From positions 1 to 35,700 of the forward strand of contig CAILJQ010000114.1 of NCBI GenBank assembly GCA_903834625.1: a DNA stretch of 35,700 nucleotides. The letters run 5' to 3'. The first letter of the stretch is position 1. Each line of letters starts with the position of its first letter. The notes beneath the pieces were generated by a model, which saw only the letters and a program-made list of their open reading frames with translations, did not search any database and was not told the DNA's origin. The DNA comes from an uncultured Bacteroidota bacterium. Its GTDB lineage: Bacteria > Bacteroidota > Bacteroidia > UKL13-3. The position numbers were made by a program, and so were the translations under genes. Below are positions 11,890-24,407 of this stretch, one piece after another.

Positions 11890-12567
11890 TCAGTCTTGTT
11901 GTTTACGATCATCTATTAAAAACAGAATCAACTCTACAGGGCCATGTGCACCTACCACCATTTCGCCCATGTTTTCTGTGTCATTTGCGGGTAAATCCAT
12001 GGTTCTACTCGGGCCGGTAATAAAGCTCATCATAGAAGGCATATTTCTGCCATATCTATTGCGCATTACTTGAAGTGATTCTTTTATATCTAATACAATT
12101 TGGGAGCGACGGGCAATAACCACATGCACAGGAGGCCAAATGGTTAGAACTCTTCCATTTCTGGTGCTGCTTACCAATATGCTTCCAGAGCTGGCTAGCA
12201 AAGTTTCGCAGCCAGTGATAGATACTTGAATTTTGTCTAATTGTTCGCGCTTATCAAAATAGGGGATGCCTGTATCATCAAGCATTTGTTGAACGGTGTC
12301 CTCCCAACAAAAGAGGTATTTCCATTTGCGCTGTTCAATCAAATTTAGGAGTTTATCAATGCAATCAAATTGGTTATCACAATAAACAAACTGACCAGAC
12401 ACATCAATAAACTTTTTAACAAACATCTCCGAAAGTGTCTCTCCTTCAGGGCGTGCAAAGATATTGCTTTCCAGATCTATGTTCTGAAAGCTGCTCTTCG
12501 ATTTATAATTGAGCGCGGCCCTAACTTTCTTTAGGATTTTTTCTTTTGATGTTATTTGCTGTTCCAA
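11890..12567 (-). CDS. LUD-domain protein (LutC/YkgG family)
   Basis: The 225-residue product matches the LUD fold seen in LutC, a subunit of the LutABC L-lactate oxidation complex. Family wording is clear in the second half: SGSILVSSTRNGRVLTIWPPVHVVIARRSQIV (about 126-157), then the GPSRTMDL stretch and the terminal GAHGPVELILFLIDD. LutA and LutB are absent from the window, so involvement in lactate use is not supported here; isolated LUD proteins are common in Bacteroidota. The start must be TTG (12565-12567): the preceding in-frame codon is a stop and the next ATG is over 40 codons in. It is the first gene of the run leading to lpxH and prfA, divergent from the gene at 12670. Confidence 0.88.
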   Translation of the reverse strand: MEQQITSKEKILKKVRAALNYKSKSSFQNIDLESNIFARPEGETLSEMFVKKFIDVSGQFVYCDNQFDCIDKLLNLIEQRKWKYLFCWEDTVQQMLDDTGIPYFDKREQLDKIQVSITGCETLLASSGSILVSSTRNGRVLTIWPPVHVVIARRSQIVLDIKESLQVMRNRYGRNMPSMMSFITGPSRTMDLPANDTENMGEMVVGAHGPVELILFLIDDRKQQD

Positions 12568-12669
12568 TCAAACGCAAATTACAGAAATATTATCGCACAA
12601 AAAAAGTACTGCATTTTTTGTATTTTTTATTTAGGTATACTACCGTTTACTATCAGGCGTTTACAATGC

Positions 12670-13554
12670 ATGAAAACGCTTAAACCTTTTTTGATGCTTG
12701 TTATTGGTATGGTAATGAGCATGGCATTTGCCTACAAACATTACGCTGAGGAAAATGAGGCAAGTTTATTAGCCGCCATAAAGGCGGGTAAAATTAGTTG
12801 TATAATGGAGAACAACCCTGGTTATTCGCATTATTCAAAATGTTTGTTAATGAAACTCCAAAACAAAACCTCGCAAGTGGTGCAGATAGAATTACCTGCT
12901 GGGTTACAAGTTTCACCAACAGATAGCAGTTACCAAAATTTGGTGCTTACCGAAACCCAATTTGTTTCATTGCAACCCTCTGAAAGCAAAAAAATAGCCC
13001 TTTTTGCCATGTGTACCGAGCCCAATGACCACGCTCCTGGCGAGTCAACAGTTCGTTACCAATTAAAAAATCATCATTCTCCAAAGCTTACCGAATTGTG
13101 CAAATTCTTATTTGCCAATGCTTATTTTACAAGTGAAGGTCAGGCCGCAGTATGGGCCGTTGCGGCCAATAGACCCATAGAAGATATCAGTGGTTTTGAT
13201 ACTTCGGCTGTGCGAAAACTACAAATGTTAACTGCAAAACTTACCAATAGAAAGGTACCGCCACCACCGGCTAAAAATGATTACAGGAGAAATTATTATG
13301 CGCCGCCACAAGTGATGAAGGTGGTTGTAACAGGTTCGCATAGTTTTAAATTTAGCAAAACCAGAAGTGTGCAAATTGCCATGTTTAATACGCACAATGT
13401 ATTGGTAAGAGAATTGTATAATAATCCTCGAGAGCCAGCAGGGTCTAAAACCATTCCTTATAAGTTTGATGCCAGCATCTATACAGACTCCGTGTATTTT
13501 ATGCGTATGATAGTAGATGGTGCGAACCGAATGGAAACAAAAATGACCATGTAA
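12670..13554 (+). CDS. Exported protein with FlgD-like Ig C-terminal domain
   Basis: A 294-residue exported protein not assigned to a named family. It begins with a signal peptide (MKTLKPFLMLVIGMVMSMAFA). Residues roughly 30-180 hold a beta-rich domain with the distinctive start SCIMENNPGYSHYSKCLLMKL and a later segment that ends in AVWAVAANRPIEDISG. A basic, proline-rich linker (KVPPPPAKNDYRRN) leads to a C-terminal region, VQIAMFNTHNVLVRELYNNPREPAGSKTIPY to SVYFMRMIVDG, that resembles the FlgD Ig-like fold also seen in T9SS sorting tails; I do not call it a sorting domain because the terminal basic segment is not typical. The frame continues upstream to a TTG, but the ATG at 12670 is placed directly before the signal peptide. 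It ends at a bidirectional terminator. Confidence 0.78.
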   Translation: MKTLKPFLMLVIGMVMSMAFAYKHYAEENEASLLAAIKAGKISCIMENNPGYSHYSKCLLMKLQNKTSQVVQIELPAGLQVSPTDSSYQNLVLTETQFVSLQPSESKKIALFAMCTEPNDHAPGESTVRYQLKNHHSPKLTELCKFLFANAYFTSEGQAAVWAVAANRPIEDISGFDTSAVRKLQMLTAKLTNRKVPPPPAKNDYRRNYYAPPQVMKVVVTGSHSFKFSKTRSVQIAMFNTHNVLVRELYNNPREPAGSKTIPYKFDASIYTDSVYFMRMIVDGANRMETKMTM

Positions 13555-13597
13555 AAAAAAAGAAGGCTGACTCAATAGAGTCAGCCTTCTTTTTTAA
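13553..13597. terminator. Bidirectional intrinsic terminator
   Basis: A perfect 13-base stem (AGAAGGCTGACTC at 13561-13573 with GAGTCAGCCTTCT at 13578-13590) and a four-base AATA loop, preceded by a run of A and followed by a run of T. Either strand therefore gives a hairpin followed by a U tract. It lies between the convergent genes ending at 13554 and 13610 and should end both transcripts, including the six-gene unit that starts near 24276. Confidence 0.93.
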
Positions 13598-13609
13598 TAG
13601 AACTTAAAA

Positions 13610-14311
13610 TTATTTACCGCTTGGTGTTTCACCAGCGCTGTTTCTGATTTCACCTTGCTTGTATATTTCAGGGTTCAAAAACTCATCATATTTAGCTCTC
13701 ATGTCTTCGGTTTCAGCCTGCATTTCTAACTTCATTTCATCTAAAATGGCTTGTTGCGCCAATGCATAACTGTAAGCCAATTTCACCTGAATTTCTGTTT
13801 GCTTACCTCTCTTACGCATTAACTTGCTAATAGGAATTACACGCTTTAATTTCTTGCTTACCTTATTGGTAGCAACTTGCAATGTCTTAGAAAGTGATGC
13901 AGCTGTTTTCGCATCTAAACGATTGTTACCTTGCTCTGTTTCAATTACCGAACGCATTTGGGTTTCTAATAAACCAACTAAATTCAATTTAGCTAATTCA
14001 ATGGCTTGCATTTCTGCTGCAGATTGAAACTCTCCTCCCGATTCTCCGTTTGCAACAATGTACTTTGGAAAACCTTCCCCATCTAATTCTGCTTCTTTTG
14101 CCCAGGCATTGTTCAATTGCTGACTAACAGGCATGTCTCCAGGAATGTTTGTCCAACCCTCCTTTTCTAATTTCCTTACCTCTTTTTTTGTGTCGCGTGC
14201 TACTTTTACGTGTTTGAATTTTTTTGACTTAATCGACTTTGAGTCTTGCGCAGTTAATACTACTGCTACTGCCATAAATGCTACGGCAATTACTTGTTTG
14301 ATTGATTTCAT
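13610..14311 (-). CDS. Exported LPP20-like protein
   Basis: A 233-residue protein with a signal peptide (KQVIAVAFMAVAVVLTAQ) and a mature part rich in lysine, alanine and glutamate. The segment EFQSAAEMQAIELAKLNLVGLLETQMRSVIE (about 94-124) followed by SKKLKRVIPISKLMRKRGKQTEIQVKLAYSYALAQQ resembles the LPP20/FlgT-N type alpha-beta domain, a fold common in small envelope proteins; this is judged by eye. It is the last gene of the six-gene unit, nine bases after the giant T9SS cargo gene and directly before the terminator. The first gene of the unit (23207-24184) has a comparable domain, so the unit may be bracketed by related proteins. Function unknown. Confidence 0.8.
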   Translation of the reverse strand: MKSIKQVIAVAFMAVAVVLTAQDSKSIKSKKFKHVKVARDTKKEVRKLEKEGWTNIPGDMPVSQQLNNAWAKEAELDGEGFPKYIVANGESGGEFQSAAEMQAIELAKLNLVGLLETQMRSVIETEQGNNRLDAKTAASLSKTLQVATNKVSKKLKRVIPISKLMRKRGKQTEIQVKLAYSYALAQQAILDEMKLEMQAETEDMRAKYDEFLNPEIYKQGEIRNSAGETPSGK

Positions 14312-14320
14312 GATTTTAAA

Positions 14321-17300
14321 TTAATGGTGAATAATTATTTTAATAGTTTGTTTGTTTTTCATATCTGATAGTTGCAAGAGGTATACACCTTCTGGTAAAT
14401 AGCTTGCATCTATGTTATTTTCATAAGTATTTCCGCGGCTCAACTTGCCTGTATAAATTGTATTTATTTGCTGTCCGAGTAAATCAAAAAGCTCAATCTT
14501 TGCATCTTCTAAATCTCTATTGGCCACGAATGAGAGGGTGAATGAATGATTAGCAGGCTGAGGATAACAAAGGAAGTTTTGAGCAATTTTTGTTTCTTTT
14601 ATACCTGCAGCTACACTTGAATAAACTGGTTTCATTACTTCAGTGCCATTGCCACATTCGTTATTTGCGCTCACACGAATGGTGCCACTTGAGGAGCCAG
14701 TTAATACACTAATTTTATTACTGTAATTACCCGATAGCAATACCCAATCTGTTGGTACCTCCCAAAAGAAGGAAGTGCCTTGTATATTTTGTACACTATA
14801 ATCTCGTATGGTAAACGACTTTACAAAAGATTCACCCTCAATGGAAGAAGGAGTTGGCGGTGTTTTAGCTACCACATTCATTGTGGTATATTTACTACTG
14901 CAGAAAGCATTGCTTACTTTTACTTGAATTGCTCCGCTTGGAGAGCCAATTAAAATATTGGTGGTTCTATTTCCTGGCTGATTTATCGTCCATCCAGTAG
15001 GTGCCTTCCATTCATAAATAGTTCCATTTAAAACATATGAAGCCTCAAACCCAATAGTTGAATTCACACAGGGTGTTGAATCTCCAGTAATTTTTGGTGC
15101 TTCTGGTGGGATACCTGCATAGTTAACTGCAAAATTGCTTGGTTGACTGCTACAAAAACCGCTGATAGCTTTTACAGAAACTATGCCTGTGGCGGCAGAT
15201 GGACTTAGCACAATATTGGTGGTGTTTTGTCCACTTACTACTGACCATCCATTGGGAAATGACCACAAATATGAACTTGCATTGCTTACAGGAGTTATGC
15301 TAAATTCATGGGTCGAACCAATACATACGCCTGGTGAACCTGTGATACTACCAGGCATATTAGGTATATTGGAATTTACAATAAGTCCAAGTGTTTTCGC
15401 GGTGCTTGAACATCCCAACTTATTTGCAGCAACGGTAATGTTGCCGTTTAAAGCAGAAGAACCTATGTTAACAGTTAGGAAGGTATCATTGGTAATTCCA
15501 ATTGGCGTGTATCCTGGACTTGGATAGGTCCAAACATAACTACTTGCATTGCTTTGCCTTGGAATGGTGAAAGTTGAAGTATTGTTTACACAAATGTTAT
15601 TTACTCCGCTAATGCTAGAAGGCTCTGTAGGAGTAGGAATAATATTCATGAATTGTTTTCTAACAGGAGATGTGCAACTTCCATTGCTGGCACTTATTCT
15701 CAAAGTATCTGCAGCACCTGGTGTAACTGAAATGCTGTTTGTGGTAGATGATCCCGACCAACCGCTTGGTAAAACCCAATTATAGGTGCTTGCACCACTC
15801 ACGGTTGAAACAGAAAAAGTAGTGCTCTTTCCAGAACATAAATTTCCTGAATAGCTGATGGTCCCTGGTTGCAGGGGTGCAGGGTTTACTGTGGTGATTG
15901 CAAGGGTAAGTTTGTTGCTCCAACATACTCCGTTAACAGCTGTTACTTCTACCAGTCCGGTATTTGTTGAAGCTTGAGCAGTTACTGCATTGGTTCCATT
16001 GCCTCCGGTAACCGACCAACCACTGGGAAAAACCCAATTATAACTTAATGCGTTCGCATCTGCATTCACTGAGTAAGTTTGTGTAGAATAGGCACATAAG
16101 GATGCAGAGCCTGTTATATTCCCAGTAAGTGATGGTAAATTATTGTTACCTGAAATATATATAATGGCGGGAGCGCTGGCGCATGTTCCATTATTTGCTC
16201 TTAATTCAACCGTGTTAGTAGCGGCAATATTCGTTCCTGTAAATAAGTTGGTAATATTTGAGGTTACAGAATTGTTTGAGTTTACCGTAAAACCGCTAGG
16301 CAATGTCCAACTGTATGAAGTTGCTCCTGATATTGCAGTGGCTCCCATGGTATAACTGCTGCTCTTGCAAACTTGGCTTGGGTAGGTAGTAATATTTGGT
16401 GTTGCTGGTGCAGTAATAACAGATAAATTGAGTGTTCTAGGAACACTGCTGCAACTATTGTTTCCTCCATTTAATGCATTCACAGTTATTGCGCCGCTTG
16501 AAGTTCCTGCAATGATATTTACACTTGTAGTTCCTTGACCGCTTGTAATAGACCATCCCAATGGAACTTGCCATAAATAGGAGTTTGCACCACTAACTGC
16601 ACTTATGGTATAAGTTCCTGTACCATTGGCGCAAATACTGCTTGGACCTGAAATAATTCCAGGTTGAGACGGAGCCGTAACTGGTGCCAAAATAGCTTGG
16701 GTTAATAAAACCCCTGTACCGCAAGTAGCGCTGGTTCCTCGTACCGTTAAATTGCCTGCTATGGCAGTTGTGCCAGGTGTTACTATGATGCTTTTTCCAT
16801 TAGAGGGCGTACCAAGTGTCCATCCCGTTGGAAAGGTCCATGTATAACTGGTTGCCCCAGGCAAAGAATCAACGGCAAATGTATTGGCCACATTTCTACA
16901 TACTGGGTTGTTGAATGTGGTTAAAGAGGGCAGGGTAGGGGCTATAGAGCAATCTACTTTTTTCCATTGGTATAAACTGTAACATCCTAATGCAGTAGAA
17001 TAAGCTCTTACCCTTATGGTATCTGATGCCTTTCCATATATGTTTGGGGTTACATTAATGCTGTTGGTTGCAGATGTGCCCGACCAAGTATTTGGCAAAA
17101 CCCAATTGTAACTTAAACCTGCCACATTGGTTACGCTAAAAGCAGAACCTGCATTGTGGCATACAATGGCAGCACCCGTAATGGCACTTGGTGTTGAAGG
17201 AATGGCATTTACTGTAACTGCAAGGGTTGCTGCTGTAGAACTGTCGCCACAAGAATTGTATGCTTTCACAGAAAGGGTACCTGTACCCACAGTGGTTACA

Positions 17301-19576
17301 TTTATATTGGTGGTACCTTGTCCAGAATTAATTGTCCAACCTGCCGGAACGGTCCATCTGTATCCAACGGCGTTTGTAGTAGTTGTAGAGAGGGAATAGG
17401 TTTTTGAAGCACCCGAACAATTGTTATTTCCACCTGCACCACTTATGGTTCCCATGGTGCCAATTGCTCCAGCAGTACATTCATAAAATTGTGAAATGAA
17501 AATATCATCACCTAATGTGGAAGGTTGGGTTGCACCGCTAGTGCTGGCAAAACTTCCAACGCTTCCTGTAATCGCCGTAATGGTAATATCATTACTATTA
17601 CTTATTGTGATTCCTGACAAACCTTCACCAGATGTTCCCCCATAATAAGTGCCAAATATTTTAACCCCAAAGGTGTTGTATTTTAACAAGGCTAAATCAT
17701 AAATACCAGATAAATTTGGTTGAAACGAATTGGTAGTGCTGATTGTGGTTGTGCTGGTAGTTTCGAATACAAGGAAAACATTGCCTGAAGCATCGTTTTC
17801 AATTTTTGGTTTTATATCATTTCCTGTGCCCCCAACATATGTAGACCATTGCTTTCCGCCTGAGGCGTCAAATTTTGCCAGTATAATGTCATAGTTTCCA
17901 CCAAGTGTTGTTTGTTGCGCCAAGGGGGTTGCAATCCCCGTAGTGCTTGTAGTCATGCCAGTAACAAATAGGTTGCCGCTTGCATCTATAGATAAATTTG
18001 AACCATTTTCTTGAACATTACCTCCAAAATAGGTTGCCCACTGCCTAACACCTGAAGAATTAAATTTAACAATTGCTAAATCAATTCCTCCGGCTAAAGT
18101 GGTTTGACTTGCCCCTGTTGTTGCAACACCACTTGCACTAGTAGTATAAAAGGATAAGTAAACATTTCCAGATGCATCAATTGCGGCAGATGATTTATCC
18201 TCGGAAGACGCCCCTCCGTAATAGGTTGCCCACTGCTTTTGTCCTATTGAGTTTATCTTAACTAAAAATATGTCTAATCCTCCCAATAAAGCAGTTTGAT
18301 GGGATCCAGTTGTGGCGATTCCAGCAAAACTTAATGTTGATCCTGATACGTATATGTTACCTGAATTATCCGAATTAATTGAGTAATTATATTCTGAATT
18401 TGTACCGCCAAAATAAGTTGACCAAACTCTGGAGCCTCCGCTATTGAAATTGGCAATTATGAGATCAGAACCCCCTGCACCACTTGTTTGAAAAGCCCCT
18501 GTGGTGCTCAGTCCTGATGAAGATTCAGTAGAACCAGAAAAACATATTGTACCATTAGCCATAGTTGTAATGGCAGGATAAATTTCTACCGATGCACCAC
18601 CAAAATAGGTGCACCAATTTCTCGAACCATTGGAGGCCATTTTAAGAATAAAAAAATCGTCGTTTGCATTGTATGTATTTTGGAACGCGCCTGCTGTTGC
18701 AATTTGTGAGGAGCTATTTGTGGTGCCAGATAGATAAATATTACCTAAGCCATCTGCTTTTAAACATGGATAGTTTTCACTACCAGACCCTCCAAAATAA
18801 TCACCCCATCTTCTTACAGGTGTTGGGTCTATTACCAAAATTTCATTAGTCTTTATCTCCTTGGATGTTTCGAACCCATAGGTATTTTCCCCTTGCACTC
18901 TAAAATTTACCGCAATCATTTGCTGTTTGCCATTTGTTTCTGTCCAACTGGCAGGAATCTTTTCAATCAATTCTCCAGAAGAAGTGATGAACTTAATGCC
19001 ATTTTTAGTGAGCGCATTTTGTGCCCCTAAAAAGCGCATCAATATTTGTTTATAATCTGCCCCAGGATGAACAATAAAATTGTATTTGAATTCTTGTTTT
19101 TCGTCGAGTAAATACTCTATATCAATACCTGGGTAAATATTCTCTGCTACTACTTTGTTATAATGGTATACACCCTCTACGCCTTCAGGTTTATTGGGTA
19201 CATTAAAGTAATTAAAATAATCTTCTGATTTGCCTTCTGTATGCCATATTGCGCTGGGATTGCTGTTTACCAATTCAATATCAACTCGGTGATATTGATA
19301 GGTTACTTTAACTTGTTTCCCCTCTTGTTTTTCTTTCTTCAACGTATAGGTGTCATAGCTAAAACCGCTGGCACGTAATTGTACATTCAAGCCATTTCTA
19401 TTGAGCAAGTATTTTACCTTGGTATTGGGCTCATATTGGGTAGTAAGAATCTGTCCTTTGTTTTCAATAAATCCTTGTTTCTGACTTGCAGCAAATGCGC
19501 TATTTTTTGGAAGTGGGTTGGCAATTGTTCCTTTTACAAATGCCAATAGTAGTATGATTAAAATGTGTTTTCTCAT
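14321..19576 (-). CDS. Giant T9SS cargo: SBBP repeats, PKD-like domains, sorting tail
   Basis: A 1751-residue secreted surface protein. Order of parts: signal peptide (ILIILLLAFVKGTIA, residues 5-19); a DUF7948-type N-terminal domain with QKQGFIENKGQI and a YHYNKVVAENIYPGIDIEY stretch (about 32-250); seven SBBP propeller repeats starting at residues 257, 321, 385, 449, 513, 577 and 641, each opening with W/F-x-x-Y-x-G-G; eleven PKD-like domains (about 705-1655), each with a Y-x-W-x-x-P core such as YRWTVPAGW or YNWVLPSGW and usually a cysteine pair; and a type A T9SS sorting domain (about 1659-1751) with CYPQPANHSF, KIELFDLLGQQI and LPEGVYLLQL. The tail marks it for export through the T9SS, whose SprA channel is encoded at 1-3127. 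Fifth gene of the six-gene unit. It probably acts at the cell surface, for example in adhesion; the ligand is unknown. Confidence 0.95.
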   Translation of the reverse strand: MRKHILIILLLAFVKGTIANPLPKNSAFAASQKQGFIENKGQILTTQYEPNTKVKYLLNRNGLNVQLRASGFSYDTYTLKKEKQEGKQVKVTYQYHRVDIELVNSNPSAIWHTEGKSEDYFNYFNVPNKPEGVEGVYHYNKVVAENIYPGIDIEYLLDEKQEFKYNFIVHPGADYKQILMRFLGAQNALTKNGIKFITSSGELIEKIPASWTETNGKQQMIAVNFRVQGENTYGFETSKEIKTNEILVIDPTPVRRWGDYFGGSGSENYPCLKADGLGNIYLSGTTNSSSQIATAGAFQNTYNANDDFFILKMASNGSRNWCTYFGGASVEIYPAITTMANGTICFSGSTESSSGLSTTGAFQTSGAGGSDLIIANFNSGGSRVWSTYFGGTNSEYNYSINSDNSGNIYVSGSTLSFAGIATTGSHQTALLGGLDIFLVKINSIGQKQWATYYGGASSEDKSSAAIDASGNVYLSFYTTSASGVATTGASQTTLAGGIDLAIVKFNSSGVRQWATYFGGNVQENGSNLSIDASGNLFVTGMTTSTTGIATPLAQQTTLGGNYDIILAKFDASGGKQWSTYVGGTGNDIKPKIENDASGNVFLVFETTSTTTISTTNSFQPNLSGIYDLALLKYNTFGVKIFGTYYGGTSGEGLSGITISNSNDITITAITGSVGSFASTSGATQPSTLGDDIFISQFYECTAGAIGTMGTISGAGGNNNCSGASKTYSLSTTTTNAVGYRWTVPAGWTINSGQGTTNINVTTVGTGTLSVKAYNSCGDSSTAATLAVTVNAIPSTPSAITGAAIVCHNAGSAFSVTNVAGLSYNWVLPNTWSGTSATNSINVTPNIYGKASDTIRVRAYSTALGCYSLYQWKKVDCSIAPTLPSLTTFNNPVCRNVANTFAVDSLPGATSYTWTFPTGWTLGTPSNGKSIIVTPGTTAIAGNLTVRGTSATCGTGVLLTQAILAPVTAPSQPGIISGPSSICANGTGTYTISAVSGANSYLWQVPLGWSITSGQGTTSVNIIAGTSSGAITVNALNGGNNSCSSVPRTLNLSVITAPATPNITTYPSQVCKSSSYTMGATAISGATSYSWTLPSGFTVNSNNSVTSNITNLFTGTNIAATNTVELRANNGTCASAPAIIYISGNNNLPSLTGNITGSASLCAYSTQTYSVNADANALSYNWVFPSGWSVTGGNGTNAVTAQASTNTGLVEVTAVNGVCWSNKLTLAITTVNPAPLQPGTISYSGNLCSGKSTTFSVSTVSGASTYNWVLPSGWSGSSTTNSISVTPGAADTLRISASNGSCTSPVRKQFMNIIPTPTEPSSISGVNNICVNNTSTFTIPRQSNASSYVWTYPSPGYTPIGITNDTFLTVNIGSSALNGNITVAANKLGCSSTAKTLGLIVNSNIPNMPGSITGSPGVCIGSTHEFSITPVSNASSYLWSFPNGWSVVSGQNTTNIVLSPSAATGIVSVKAISGFCSSQPSNFAVNYAGIPPEAPKITGDSTPCVNSTIGFEASYVLNGTIYEWKAPTGWTINQPGNRTTNILIGSPSGAIQVKVSNAFCSSKYTTMNVVAKTPPTPSSIEGESFVKSFTIRDYSVQNIQGTSFFWEVPTDWVLLSGNYSNKISVLTGSSSGTIRVSANNECGNGTEVMKPVYSSVAAGIKETKIAQNFLCYPQPANHSFTLSFVANRDLEDAKIELFDLLGQQINTIYTGKLSRGNTYENNIDASYLPEGVYLLQLSDMKNKQTIKIIIHH

Positions 19577-19585
19577 GTGGCATAT

Positions 19586-20557
19586 TTATTTAGATACAAA
19601 AAAATCGTTCAATTCATCAGCGTCATTTCCAGTGCCTACATAGGCCTTGCCTCCAAATGTGAAAGCTACTGCACCATACCTTGCCCCAGTATTAATCTGC
19701 GGGGCCAATTTCCATTGATTGGTTAAGGCATTGTATTCATAAAAATCTTTCATTACTCCAGCCACAGGGTTCCAACCTGTTCCTACATAACCTCTTTTTT
19801 CAAAGGCAAAGGCTACAGCATCGTCTCTCACATACCCAGGTAGATCGGGTATCCTATCCCAAGTGTTTTTGCTTGGGTCAAATGCATAAAAGTCTTTCAA
19901 ATAATAGGTGCCATCAAAACCTGTTCCTACATAAGCTTTGTTATTTAATACAAATACGGCTGCATCTGTTCTTCCTCCTCCTGGCATATCTGCCATTTTT
20001 TTCCAAGTGTTTAAAGCCGGATTGAATTCATAAAGGTCTCTAAAGTACCCACTCACACCTCTCCCCAATCCTACATAAACTTTAGTACCAATTGTAAAAG
20101 AAATGCAATTGCTTCTTGCCTCAACAGGAATATTGCTAATTGTGCTCCATGAACCAGTGGGTGTTTTCGACCAAATAACATTATTGTAGTTCAAATCAGC
20201 TAGACCAAATCCATAATACAATTTTCCTTGCGCCAAAAATGAAATGGCCCCTGAAAGAAATTGAGGAGCTGTTGCAGTTAATAGAGTGAGTTTGCGTGTA
20301 GGGGGTTTTACTTCCCAAATTTCTAAATTGGTAAAGGTTCCAGGCTCACCACCTCCTATAATAAAAACACTCTCCTCGTTATAACTCACGGTGGCATTGC
20401 TTCTTTCCTTAAAAGGAATATTCAATTGGGATGAGCTGAATATACATTGCTCCCAAGCAGATACCCTATCCATATTGGAGGCTCCAACAGGTTGAGGGAT
20501 TTCTTCCTTACAAGAAAAGAATAAACTAAGGGTAATAAGTAAAATATAAATTCTCAT
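19586..20557 (-). CDS. Kelch-repeat lipoprotein
   Basis: A 323-residue protein with a lipoprotein signal: a hydrophobic stretch IYILLITLSLFF followed by S-C16-K-E-E. A lysine and two acidic residues directly after the lipid-modified cysteine resemble the surface export signal described for Bacteroidota lipoproteins, so it may be displayed outside the outer membrane. The body contains about six Kelch units; four late ones repeat the pattern YVG-G followed by DFY-FDPS-NTW and are clearly visible (LYEFNPALNTWKKM, FYAFDPSKNTWDRI, FYEYNALTNQWKLA). Kelch units build a beta-propeller used for protein or glycan binding. It starts four bases after the upstream gene ends and is nine bases from the next, so it belongs to the six-gene unit. 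The partner is unknown. Confidence 0.9.
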   Translation of the reverse strand: MRIYILLITLSLFFSCKEEIPQPVGASNMDRVSAWEQCIFSSSQLNIPFKERSNATVSYNEESVFIIGGGEPGTFTNLEIWEVKPPTRKLTLLTATAPQFLSGAISFLAQGKLYYGFGLADLNYNNVIWSKTPTGSWSTISNIPVEARSNCISFTIGTKVYVGLGRGVSGYFRDLYEFNPALNTWKKMADMPGGGRTDAAVFVLNNKAYVGTGFDGTYYLKDFYAFDPSKNTWDRIPDLPGYVRDDAVAFAFEKRGYVGTGWNPVAGVMKDFYEYNALTNQWKLAPQINTGARYGAVAFTFGGKAYVGTGNDADELNDFFVSK

Positions 20558-20561
20558 AACG

Positions 20562-21425
20562 CTATTTAAGTTTAAACCCTACTCCTGCAGAGAAATTCAA
20601 GTAACTGAAATTGATGTTCTGAAGTCCCAAAGTGAAGACATATTTATTTTTAATAAATGCCACAACACCTACCTCGGTTTGTAATCCAGCCGCGCTGGTT
20701 TCTTTTACCCTAACATAGCCGTTTTCTTGGGGTTCATCCAGTTCATTATAAGAGGCGTAATCCCAATAAACATTGTGCATACCAAAGCCACCACCACCAT
20801 AGAAATAAATGATGGGAGAGAACTTGTGCAAGTACCCGGCACTTACCATGAGGTTTGATATTTTTTGTTTGTCACCTATTACCCAATAGTTATTTGAACT
20901 AAAATTGGTAATGCCATTTGCATCGGCTACGTAATCTCCTTTGGCAAATGTGAAATTGGTTTGAAGTTTAACGTAATAGCCTTTATGTTTTCGGTAACCA
21001 TACATTATACCAACAGGCGTTTTTCCTGAAAATTGGTATGCTAAGAATCTAACGGGAGTAACTGGTAATCTCTCTGTTTCTAGCCTTACTTGAAAAACTA
21101 CTTTCCCTACTAGGTCGTCTACATCTTTATAAATTTCCCATTCAATTTTTAGGGTTCCAGTTGGCATCCTTTTTAAAAGCCCCACATCTCCTGTTACATA
21201 TTTAAGCGGACCAATAAATGTACTTCCTCCGTCTAAACTCAACCACAAACTACTTTGATATTTTATTTCATCAGAAACAGGTGTAATGGAATAGCTAACA
21301 GTAATTTTAGTTTGATCACTTGATAAGGTAAACCTTACATCTTTTACCTTTTGTGCGCTTAATGGTTTTACCCCAACTATAATAAGTAGTAGAGCCAACA
21401 ATTTAAATAACCTTTTGTCTATCAT
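20562..21425 (-). CDS. Exported outer-membrane barrel-like protein with Ig-like N-terminus
   Basis: From the ATG at 21423-21425 this 287-residue protein has a signal peptide (RLFKLLALLLIIVGVKPLSAQ). Its first hundred mature residues look like an Ig-like sandwich: VRFTLSSDQTKITVSYSI, LWLSLDGGSTF and TLKIEWEIYKDV are the main strands. The second half, with GIMYGYRKHKGYYVKL, YGGGGFGMHNVYW and NFSAGVGFKLK at the very C-terminus, has the alternating pattern and end expected of a small outer-membrane beta-barrel. The Ig-like-plus-barrel arrangement suggests an anchor with a periplasmic domain. It lies third in the six-gene unit: 14 bases from the caspase gene stop and 4 bases from the Kelch gene. 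A TTG two codons upstream is possible but unnecessary. Function unknown. Confidence 0.8.
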   Translation of the reverse strand: MIDKRLFKLLALLLIIVGVKPLSAQKVKDVRFTLSSDQTKITVSYSITPVSDEIKYQSSLWLSLDGGSTFIGPLKYVTGDVGLLKRMPTGTLKIEWEIYKDVDDLVGKVVFQVRLETERLPVTPVRFLAYQFSGKTPVGIMYGYRKHKGYYVKLQTNFTFAKGDYVADANGITNFSSNNYWVIGDKQKISNLMVSAGYLHKFSPIIYFYGGGGFGMHNVYWDYASYNELDEPQENGYVRVKETSAAGLQTEVGVVAFIKNKYVFTLGLQNINFSYLNFSAGVGFKLK

Positions 21426-21439
21426 GTTCAAGTGCTGTT

Positions 21440-23197
21440 TTAATACTCGGTAAGAACCATACTTGGATCGCCAAAGAATACGGGTGTTTGGGTTTTACCC
21501 GATGATATTTTTTTTGCCAAATCATTCACATTTAACAATAAATAATTTTGCAATTCACCTGCTGTAATTTTCTTGTCTTTGTTGCTGTCTGCTTCTCCTT
21601 GTAATCCTACACACAAGAAATAGGTATACAATCCAGATTGTGATCCATCAAAACCAAGCGATGTTTCTTCATTGGAAGAAGAAGTAAATACCCTAAAGTT
21701 TTCATTGGTTTCCCAAGGTCTCACTGAGGCAGGTTTTACCTTTATTCCTAATGCTTTTGTACCTGTTAAATTCTCATTTGCTCTAGTTGACCCACTAAAA
21801 CAAGCATCCATTATCACAGTCACGCTTCTTGCATTGAGTTTGTTCAACGATTCATAAAAATTGTTAATGCTATATCCAGTCTCTCTTAAGAAATTGATGT
21901 CTCCATCAGATGGAAATAAATATACTTCTGCTCCATCTCTATCTGGCACGCCATGACCAGAGTAATACACAAACAAATCTGTTTTACCTTGCTCAATCAT
22001 GGTGCTTAATTTCCCTATACTGGGGTCAAACTTTTGCTTAAAAAATAAGCCTGCAACCTCTTGGTTGGTGAAAGTAATTACCTCTTCAACACCTAGCGTA
22101 TTCTTAAAGTATTTTTGCATCAACTCTGCGTCGTGAGCGGCATAGGGCGCTTTTGGTAAATTGGTATAATTCTCAACGCCTATAACAATGGCAATAGATT
22201 TGCTTCTTTTGTTTTTGCCCAAGGCGGGTGTTTCAATGTTCTTTATATTGCTTTTATTAACCGTAAATTTTTCTGACTTATACTCTATCCTAGCCACTTG
22301 TTTTTGAATTTGTGCCATATCTGCCTTTACAGATAGCACTGCTGGTTTTGGAGCCCTTTTTTCCAGCTCCAATGGGATTTGAAATTCCTTTAAATTGCCA
22401 TAATTCTTCCGCTCGGTAACGGTTAAAAATATTGGAAGTTTACCGCTTGATTTTACACGGTTATTCGGACTAATGGTTACCCAAATTTCTTTGGTCTCAC
22501 CAATTTTGATATCACCAAGCTGACCATTACCATTTTCGATATAAATATTTTGATCACTGGTAGTTACAATGTATTGGGCATCTAAGGCCAAATTCTGACC
22601 AATGTTTTGAATAACCAATTTGGCTTTAATTTGCTCTCCAGCTTGCAAAATACCATCTTTTACTTTTGCCATTGTGCCATCTCCTTGGTCAAAAATGTCC
22701 ATACCAGAGAATACAATTTTTGAAGGGATGTATTGGTAAGTATTAACAACAAGTAAGGCAGGATCCATATCATACCCAAAATGCTCGGTAATGTGTAATT
22801 GCATTTTGTGTTCGTTCGTCTTAATATGAAATCCAGCATGAATTTTCATTTCAACCACTTTGGTTTCATTTGGCTTTACCAATCTAACCAACTTGTCTTG
22901 TTCTATAGATAATTCCGGGTCGGTAACATTTGACTTTAAACTAATCTGTAAACCTTGTGCTGGTCCACTTCCATCGTTTCTAAGCGTTAAAATGAGTCGG
23001 GCATTTTCCTCTGCCTCTAATAGTCCATTGGCATTATCATCTACAAATTGCAACTCAACAAAAATATTAGGTGGTAAACCTCTTATATAAGGCTTGCTTA
23101 GGTTTAACTCTTTGCTTGCACTATTTCCGGTAGTTTGCGCTTGAAGTGCAAATAGCTTAGCGCATAATAAAACAAATAGAATAATATATTTTTTCAT
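21440..23197 (-). CDS. Exported caspase-family (C14) peptidase with CARDB-like domains
   Basis: A 585-residue protein with signal peptide (IILFVLLCAKLFALQAQ). Two CARDB-like sandwich domains follow (about 45-150 and 160-290; for example ARLILTLRNDGSGPAQGLQISL and AKLVIQNIGQNLALDAQY). The C14 domain begins near SIAIVIGVENYTNLPKAPYAAHDAEL and contains the catalytic dyad His415 (YYSGHGVP) and Cys466 (MDACFSGS), both intact. Near the end, residues 537-548 (D-S-N-K-D-K-K-I-T-A-G-E) match an EF-hand-type calcium loop, and residues 53-64 form a second similar loop. Caspase-like peptidases of this class usually cut after basic or acidic residues and some need calcium. The presence of an export signal implies envelope action. 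It is second in the six-gene unit, nine bases after the DUF4384-like gene. The substrate is unknown; the neighbouring exported proteins are candidates. Confidence 0.93.
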   Translation of the reverse strand: MKKYIILFVLLCAKLFALQAQTTGNSASKELNLSKPYIRGLPPNIFVELQFVDDNANGLLEAEENARLILTLRNDGSGPAQGLQISLKSNVTDPELSIEQDKLVRLVKPNETKVVEMKIHAGFHIKTNEHKMQLHITEHFGYDMDPALLVVNTYQYIPSKIVFSGMDIFDQGDGTMAKVKDGILQAGEQIKAKLVIQNIGQNLALDAQYIVTTSDQNIYIENGNGQLGDIKIGETKEIWVTISPNNRVKSSGKLPIFLTVTERKNYGNLKEFQIPLELEKRAPKPAVLSVKADMAQIQKQVARIEYKSEKFTVNKSNIKNIETPALGKNKRSKSIAIVIGVENYTNLPKAPYAAHDAELMQKYFKNTLGVEEVITFTNQEVAGLFFKQKFDPSIGKLSTMIEQGKTDLFVYYSGHGVPDRDGAEVYLFPSDGDINFLRETGYSINNFYESLNKLNARSVTVIMDACFSGSTRANENLTGTKALGIKVKPASVRPWETNENFRVFTSSSNEETSLGFDGSQSGLYTYFLCVGLQGEADSNKDKKITAGELQNYLLLNVNDLAKKISSGKTQTPVFFGDPSMVLTEY

Positions 23198-23206
23198 AAG
23201 AAGGTA

Positions 23207-24184
23207 TTATGGGATTATGCTGATAACAGTGCTTTCTAATTGAATTTCTTTTTCTGCCATGCGCAGTTTTTGCAGCCATCGCTGGAAGTCTTCACTGCTT
23301 AAACTCAATGGGATTTCTAACTGCTGCCTATTAGTAGTTTCTTGCTGTTGTAGGAGTGGTTTTCCTATTTCTACTTTGGGCCTATACAAAACAAATATTT
23401 TACTTATCTCCGGTGTTTCTGGTTTGCTGAGGTAAAACACAAACTCATCTACTTTTACTTTAGGTATGGAACCAGCATTTGAAGGATCAAAAAAGATGTA
23501 TTTTTTGTCGGCTTGAACCGGATAGGAACCAAGCATTTTATCAACCTTGTAAGGTAGCATGCGAAAAGTGGTTTTTTCCTCTGGCACGTCGCAGAATACA
23601 GCAATATAGCCATCCTCAGGTGCTGTAAATTCTAAATAAATTGATTGTTTGTCGTTAAATGTATTCGTTTTGCATTGTGTTTCTGGGCAGCTCAATACAT
23701 AACTTTTGAAGTTAACGGGTACCTCTTTAATCTCTCTTATTTTCCCAACAACCTTTACCTCCATCCACCAGCTGTCTTCCTCAAACAATTTTTCTATACT
23801 AGGTGGTTTTATGTCTTCAATCCATTCACCATTTACCATGGTTTCTGCCATCATGTTGAATACATTTTTACTCTCGCTGCTGGTTCCAGTTCTTTCGTTT
23901 TTAATGTAGGTACTATTGCCTTGGATAACAGTAACGCCAAAGGCATTTTCAATGGCGTTTATCCTTGCCCTTTCTATGCAAATCTTTTCTGCATCTAATT
24001 CGCTCATCGACTTTTCGATGCGCATTTTATACTCACCTGATTCGGTAACTATTTTTTGGGCATTAACCCATTGATTTGGGAATGTTACTAAAAACAGAAG
24101 GAGAACAATCCAGCGTTTCGGCTCTTTATTTTGTTTGAACCCAAATAAGGCGGCTGTTGTTGGCCAATAATATTGAAGATTCAT
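23207..24184 (-). CDS. Exported LPP20-like / DUF4384-like protein
   Basis: The first gene of the six-gene unit. From ATG 24182-24184 the product is 325 residues with a hydrophobic export segment (WIVLLLFLVTFPNQWVNAQ). Next comes an LPP20/FlgT-N-like region (SMSELDAEKICIERARINAIENAFGV, then WMEVKVVGKIREI), followed by a segment whose wording IYLEFTAPEDGYIAVFCDVPEEKTTFRMLPY and closing FQRWLQKLRMAEKEIQLESTVISI resembles DUF4384, a domain frequently found with caspase-family proteins. An ATG at 24256 would add 24 residues, but that reading runs through the inverted-repeat leader and gives a very long region before the export segment, so 24184 is preferred. It lies nine bases before the caspase gene. 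Domain calls are by eye; role unknown, plausibly an accessory of the caspase protein. Confidence 0.8.
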   Translation of the reverse strand: MNLQYYWPTTAALFGFKQNKEPKRWIVLLLFLVTFPNQWVNAQKIVTESGEYKMRIEKSMSELDAEKICIERARINAIENAFGVTVIQGNSTYIKNERTGTSSESKNVFNMMAETMVNGEWIEDIKPPSIEKLFEEDSWWMEVKVVGKIREIKEVPVNFKSYVLSCPETQCKTNTFNDKQSIYLEFTAPEDGYIAVFCDVPEEKTTFRMLPYKVDKMLGSYPVQADKKYIFFDPSNAGSIPKVKVDEFVFYLSKPETPEISKIFVLYRPKVEIGKPLLQQQETTNRQQLEIPLSLSSEDFQRWLQKLRMAEKEIQLESTVISIIP

Positions 24185-24202
24185 AGTTAAGGTATAATGG
24201 CC

Positions 24203-24276
24203 AAGTACCTTACTACGTTTTTTCGTGGTAAAAGGAGAAATGATATAGGTCAACATCTCCTTATATTAAGGTACTT
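24203..24276 (-). promoter_or_regulatory. Structured leader upstream of the six-gene unit
   Basis: Read on the minus strand, AAGTACCTTA (24276-24267) pairs perfectly with TAAGGTACTT (24212-24203), enclosing two smaller hairpins: AAGGAGA with TCTCCTT, and CCACG with CGTAG around an A6 loop (one C-A mismatch). The three stems form a compact three-way junction ending 19 bases before the preferred start at 24184. A leader controlling translation or transcription of the unit is a reasonable reading. I do not recognise a known riboswitch, and it does not have a tRNA T-loop. Confidence 0.5.
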
Positions 24277-24407
24277 AGCATTTATACAAGTATCCTTAAA
24301 TAGAATTTGGGAATGAACGCTAATTAATGATTAGCTTAGCTGTAATGAGGAATTATCTCGCTCACTATTTTTAGGTATAAAATATTTGAATTTCCCCGAA
24401 GGCCTAC

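Follow-up and report, generated by a model that had tools for sequence, protein, structure and literature searches.

Bacterial caspase homologues have mostly been discussed as cytoplasmic effectors of cell death or defence, and their natural substrates are largely unknown. In their 2012 survey of prokaryotic caspase homologues, Asplund-Samuelsson et al. (PMC3501461) already suggested that some of these proteins are extracytoplasmic, described probable signal peptides on some of them, noted operons in which caspase genes are joined by genes for outer-membrane proteins or sigma factors, and found the highest number of homologues in a Bacteroidetes genome; an extracytoplasmic caspase is therefore not new in itself. 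Here we describe a unit of six genes, A to F, one of which (gene B) encodes a caspase-family peptidase predicted to be exported. The unit lies in a 35,700-nucleotide stretch of DNA from an uncultured Bacteroidota bacterium (assembly GCA_903834625.1, contig CAILJQ010000114.1, positions 1 to 35,700), hereafter the window. With the orthocaspases and metacaspases of the 2012 survey (PMC3501461) it has in common the C14 His-Cys dyad, an operon setting with outer-membrane proteins or sigma factors, and the signal peptides found on some members. As far as consulted, that survey does not describe the combination of a caspase with an Lpp20-fold protein, a DUF4384 protein and an immunoglobulin-like (Ig) barrel protein, or with a display cassette of the type IX secretion system (T9SS).

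Two further groups of systems invite comparison. The nucleoside triphosphate (NTP)-dependent conflict systems (VMAP/iSTAND, PMC7159879) resemble the unit in combining caspase-like or transglutaminase-like peptidases with variable accessory domains, FGS among them, but they are centred on an NTPase or a membrane effector, whereas the window unit has no NTPase gene and all of its products carry export signals. PorU and the gingipains are likewise cysteine peptidases that work outside the cytoplasm in Bacteroidota, PorU acting on T9SS cargo. They belong to peptidase family C25, which is placed in clan CD, as are the caspases. B, in contrast, matches C14 and not C25, and lacks a T9SS C-terminal domain. 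A literature search of limited extent did not find this specific gene set in print; it returned nothing on exported or periplasmic caspases, only cyanobacterial or orthocaspase papers for caspases combined with DUF4384, and nothing relevant for LPP20 combined with caspases.

We propose that the unit is an operon for an envelope-located caspase module in which fast-evolving surface proteins gate or receive the proteolysis, a reading to which we assign a probability of about 0.4. Such a module would be a tractable system in which to ask what a caspase of the envelope does and what it cleaves, given a compact exported set with constant partners, a single caspase per genome in many carriers, and clean presence or absence among close relatives. 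It would also offer leads on the functions of three unassigned protein types, namely those of F, of A with DUF4384, and of C.

The six-gene unit and its caspase

Six co-oriented open reading frames run along the minus strand from 24256 to 13610 in the order A-B-C-D-E-F. Their products comprise 349, 585, 289, 323, 1751 and 233 residues, and the intergenic gaps from A to F are 9, 8, 4, 9 and 9 bases as called. Gene C is called from a TTG codon; its likely start, an ATG two codons in (at about 21425), would widen the B-C gap to 14, which explains the spacing of 4 to 14 bases given in an earlier, sequence-only reading of this DNA. The six closely spaced same-strand genes of that reading are thus confirmed and, judged from the sequence, are one operon-like unit.

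Gene B (21440..23197) encodes an exported Peptidase_C14 homologue with an N-terminal Ig-like region (61.8 bits against a Pfam cut-off of 21.4). Its catalytic residues are intact, as had been noted from the sequence: His415 stands in a G-H-G context and Cys466 in D-A-C. The dyad is present in 38 of 41 aligned caspases, and the remainder are truncated or split reading frames. Asp464 and Asp356, candidates for an acidic specificity pocket, are conserved at their usual positions near the active site of the fold. Orthocaspases are described as cutting after basic residues (PMC6426788), and by analogy B may cleave after Arg or Lys. Searches of B against Pfam at E<=0.05 return C14, an Ig-like family and Raptor_N only, with no C25 domain of the PorU type and no T9SS C-terminal domain; the NCBIfam model for EACC1-associated caspases (NF047832) reaches 77.9 bits, below its cut-off of 140. 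B is the sole C14 protein in its genome. Across homologues the N-terminal part of the caspase varies, being Ig-like in B and in families f2, f28 and f30, and WD40 in f64 and in two congeners (G001 and G006). In a quick tree calculated with no bootstrap, the caspases linked to A or F are spread over several separate branches.

The export calls are rule-based readings of a Q-rule pattern or a lipobox, a rule of thumb rather than a trained predictor. Under the Q-rule, signal peptidase I of Bacteroidetes cleaves before Gln (PMC5837995), and in a scan for this pattern A-Q comes after a hydrophobic stretch in all four of A, B, C and F. The pattern recurs in 33 of 48 caspase homologues, 26 of 34 homologues of A, 21 of 32 of F and 16 of 21 of C, compared with 110 of 552 other open reading frames of the same loci, a background that itself contains many other exported proteins. 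In gene A (23207..24256), 65 residues precede the apparent cleavage site and an alternative ATG is found near 24184; the true start probably lies downstream of the called ATG. The product of gene D (19586..20557) is a predicted lipoprotein whose Cys16, invariant in six homologues, is followed by K-E-E. The lipoprotein export signal is C-X-K-(D/E)2 (PMC5080379); D places its Lys at +2 where the optimum is +3, a near but not exact match. The product of gene E (14321..19576) has a hydrophobic N-terminus. An export signal can therefore be read on every product, B included, and the predicted position of this caspase-family protein outside the cytoplasm, noted in the sequence-only reading, stands.

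The conserved core and its partner proteins

Gene order in relatives, the comparison proposed along with the first reading, is kept among congeners. The genus is represented by 19 genomes: 11 have A, 10 of these also have B, and eight have neither. Three loci show the complete A-B-C-D-E-F order (L035, L037, L038), and the same order runs to the end of the contig in those that stop within E (L034, L036, L039), C (L033) or B (L040). The caspase is thus tied to the outer-membrane protein, the propeller lipoprotein and the T9SS cargo in every congener with a long enough contig. Upstream neighbours differ, accD in the window being replaced by an epimerase-like gene in four loci (L033, L034, L037, L047), which means that the unit has no single fixed position. 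In genome G001, F is followed by a second outer-membrane protein and a WD40-caspase (L038:4156-7043); genome G006 lacks B-C-D-E and instead has this second pair along with A and F. Two congeners carry, directly after F, an extracytoplasmic function (ECF) sigma factor, a membrane-spanning probable anti-sigma factor and a conserved protein of 346 residues (L102:2741-4934, L101:7014-9117).

To look beyond the genus, 247 genomes from across the class Bacteroidia were searched with a profile of F and the neighbourhoods of strong matches were read; profiles of A and C were run on the same genomes. Four genomes of family f43 have F directly followed by A (gap of -4 or -1) and then an exported caspase. 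F-A-caspase or permutations of it are also seen in f2 (at four loci from three genomes), in f64 and in f67; in f67 a protein with an OMP_b-brl domain sits between A and the caspase. In f57, F is fused to DUF4384 and followed by a transglutaminase-like protein and then the caspase, with a C homologue upstream; L089 is a locus with this fusion. The A and C profiles added f28 (A-B, with C divergent), f30 (F-A-B-C-C-...-caspase), f41 (A-B), f47 and f51. The conserved core that emerges is an exported caspase with A and F, usually accompanied by a C-type outer-membrane protein. The core is found in at least eleven Bacteroidia families, f1 included, and in two Bacteroidales metagenome-assembled genomes (L031, L032). 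When the F profile was run over 395 genomes of the phylum, nothing convincing appeared outside Bacteroidia, with one marginal partial match (G405, E 4.8e-4).

The association is also seen in counts. Strong matches in the 247 genomes comprise 13 with both A and F, two with F only and none with A only (Fisher p 7e-20). A caspase is present in every one of the 16 surveyed genomes that have F or A, compared with 15 of 40 that have neither (Fisher p 3.8e-6, with the caspase-free genomes G003 and G004 added to the negatives). Where an F-bearing genome has exactly one caspase, that caspase adjoins F and/or A in 8 of 11 cases, drawn from five families. Weak F matches in five genomes (L158-L162), which serve as a built-in negative control, are never beside a caspase. 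Loci were gathered through A, F, B or C as anchors, and selection for a caspase is avoided only in the counts anchored on F and A. The co-occurrence statistics take no account of relatedness, which makes the number of families the safer figure.

This recurrence bears on the simplest alternative, that functionally unrelated envelope genes happen to be co-transcribed from one promoter. D and E belong to common surface-protein types, and sets of a C-like gene with a lipoprotein gene occur without a caspase at two loci (L105 and L149), as such a view would have it; A, F and the caspase, on the other hand, recur together in at least eleven families in varied gene orders and positions, which chance co-transcription does not predict. 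We consider this alternative improbable for the unit as a whole, though it may apply to D and E alone.

Two further observations concern the neighbours of these caspase modules. An exported family of 447-515 residues stands beside them at five loci (L031:7642-9141, L089:7979-9322, L083:3993-5534, L084:6800-8329, L043:6369-7916). Its members have invariant D-C-E-D, H-x-A and C-D-P-x-Y motifs and are probably transglutaminase-like (Pfam E 0.07-0.15 in two members). Within the exported caspase cluster of L031 there is also an FRG-domain protein with no evident signal (L031:9152-9994).

Gene F (13610..14311), the small exported partner of A and the caspase, has no Pfam match in the window protein, and the Pfam LPP20 model appears neither there nor among the 25 families listed for 18 F members at E<=0.5. 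Its AlphaFold model (mean predicted local distance difference test score, pLDDT, 80.6) has as its best solved match Lpp20 (5ok8; Z 9.2, root-mean-square deviation 4.3, 111 of 115 residues), with HP1454, Tip-alpha and FlgT next; by Foldseek alone, F matches Lpp20 at E 0.013 only. F is thus predicted to have an Lpp20-type fold. This likeness to Lpp20, HP1454 and the FlgT N-domain (5ok8, 4kzs, 3w1e) is one of predicted fold, and no function follows from it.

The product of gene A appears to comprise an N-terminal alpha/beta domain and a DUF4384-like Ig-type sandwich. Its match to DUF4384 reaches 14.9 bits, below the Pfam cut-off of 27. Among relatives of A, 12 of 18 match DUF4384 at E<=0.5 (best 6.6e-06), and two pass the cut-off (L031 at 27.2 bits, L142 at 38.1 bits). 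In the structural model of A (mean pLDDT 73.7) residues 180-349 resemble Ig-type sandwiches with non-specific Z scores of up to 8, and the relatives of A among solved structures are generic Ig-type sandwiches only. The matches are dominated by this C-terminal sandwich, and the N-domain, for which an Lpp20 fold was considered, is partly of low confidence. The sequence-only reading had called both proteins LPP20-like. The label survives for F, by predicted fold, while A itself shows the weak DUF4384 match; the two proteins do not match each other by profile. A and F were also considered as paralogues, and this was rejected at an hhalign probability of 2%.

Gene C (20562..21431) probably encodes an outer-membrane barrel with an N-terminal Ig-like domain. 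The window protein has no Pfam match; its homologue in L031 matches OMP_b-brl at E 1.7e-4, below the cut-off. Genes of the C type adjoin the caspase in f1, f30, f28 (divergently) and Bacteroidales.

Surface proteins and the proposed mechanism

Identity to the window proteins among congeners is 90-67% for F, 81-51% for B, 68-50% for A, 60-38% for C, 50-36% for D and 48-38% for E. F is thus the slowest-diverging member of the unit and E, with D, the fastest; the rise in divergence from F and B to D and E is as expected if D and E face outward. By Pfam, D matches Kelch repeat families, consistent with a beta-propeller lipoprotein. The 1751-residue E comprises a DUF7948 domain, SBBP repeats, 11 PKD_6 domains and a C-terminal sorting domain (Por_Secre_tail at residues 1671-1749, 43.1 bits against a cut-off of 27; TIGR04183, 34.6 against 23). 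The 3.4-Mb genome to which the window belongs (G000) has 133 matches to the T9SS C-terminal sorting domain, which suggest that the T9SS machinery is present. In two congeners (G010 and G012) gene E is duplicated head-to-tail, with the copies 6 bases apart (L034:9550-15855 and L104:1051-5730).

Other loci suggest that D and E occupy a variable surface slot. L031 has in their place an FGE-domain lipoprotein and a 1754-residue protein with FGE, fn3 and Fib_succ domains. At L105, where there is no caspase, a C-like gene is accompanied by a LamG lipoprotein and an FG-GAP/T9SS protein. L149 (7454-14838) is also free of a caspase; there genes for a Ser/Thr kinase, a PP2C phosphatase and apparently an FHA protein, the last assigned from its sequence only, directly precede a C homologue with a Kelch lipoprotein.

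Within the window genus, B, C, D and E form a cassette between A and F. In the mechanism we propose, B would be a proteolytic switch in the periplasm or at the outer membrane, held, localised or regulated by A and F, and the product of gene C would couple it to the outer membrane. The surface-exposed and fast-changing D and E would, in this genus, provide either the input, through ligand or contact sensing, or the controlled output. Physical association of the products, the direction of signalling, the substrate and the trigger are elements of the module that we infer. A wider form of the proposal would place caspase-based sensing or execution wholly outside the cytoplasm, with a complex of B, A, F and the outer-membrane protein coupled to interchangeable, fast-evolving surface receptors and with the cell's own envelope, or its neighbours, as the target; we hold this to be possible, if on the unlikely side.

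Two sets of observations weigh against the envelope-module proposal. Most loci with the core of caspase, A and F have neither D nor E, so any part these two play in gating is a lineage-specific guess; and three f43 genomes have their caspase apart from A and F, so tight linkage is not obligatory.

The absence of D and E elsewhere also bears on the role first put forward for the unit, which was described as built around the giant T9SS cargo. Other families keep the caspase, A and F with neither D nor E, and that description was dropped. The associated idea was that B is a dedicated protease that matures or releases E, and perhaps D, as a private counterpart of the T9SS sortase. It would fit the side-by-side position of B-C-D-E, with unchanged order, in every congener with enough contig to show it, the tandem duplication of E in two of them, and the giant surface-type protein that likewise follows the caspase and outer-membrane protein at L031. 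It sits poorly with the lack of an E-like gene in most core loci of other families and with the 133 T9SS C-terminal domains that stand against one caspase in the genome. The imbalance in number means that T9SS maturation in general is not tied to B. B also lacks a T9SS C-terminal domain, so that as a processor of E it would act in the periplasm or before export. Since most core loci have no E-like gene, and about 130 other T9SS signals face a single caspase, maturation of E may occur but is ruled out as the general role; as an account of the unit we find it unlikely.

The envelope-module proposal must also be weighed against a signalling role. Here B would serve as sensor protease in a pathway for envelope stress or contact and, by cutting an anti-sigma factor or partner outside the cytoplasm, would feed an ECF sigma factor, with the operon as both target and input of the pathway. 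At L031 and L089 the module has sigma and membrane anti-sigma genes as neighbours, and at L102 F lies next to an ECF sigma gene, which makes this a serious rival, and the 2012 survey (PMC3501461) reports metacaspase operons with sigma-70 factors in Myxococcus and others. No sigma or anti-sigma gene adjoins the window unit, and most other loci have no evident one; we regard the signalling role as doubtful for the unit described here.

Finally, the exported caspase might damage the envelope upon recognition of a surface trigger, making the module a device for killing the cell itself or its neighbours. Extracellular action of exported metacaspases on self or neighbours is proposed in the 2012 survey (PMC3501461). 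Against this, none of the six genes is by Pfam a pore-former, an amidase or immunity-like, and the only indication of membership in a defence system is a weak PADLOC 'caspase' match (25.8 bits). Moreover, each of the f43 genomes examined retains one caspase, so a maintained cell function is likelier than a variable weapon, and a killing device seems quite improbable.

Boundaries of the unit

Upstream, the unit is separated from accD by an intergenic region (24257..24407, minus strand) that presumably holds its promoter and leader. The sequence-only reading had seen a structured leader here, but folding gives no significant structure (z -1.30, with 21 of 200 shuffles folding equally well), and no Rfam family was matched anywhere in the window, so this feature was abandoned. 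Matches to a sigma-70-like promoter across the region are fewer, not more, than expected from shuffles (31 against 39), and no Bacteroidetes-type -33/-7 promoter pattern occurs in the unit or its leader.

The downstream end is sharper. The perfect bidirectional terminator described earlier is borne out as an intrinsic terminator at 13556..13595, with an 18-bp stem and a 4-base loop that fold with a z of -7.07 relative to shuffles. It begins two bases past the stop of a convergent gene (12556-13554) and can therefore serve the unit and this gene alike. The convergent gene itself has no Pfam match; the TTG from which it is called probably lies upstream of the true start, and a signal-like stretch begins at about residue 39.

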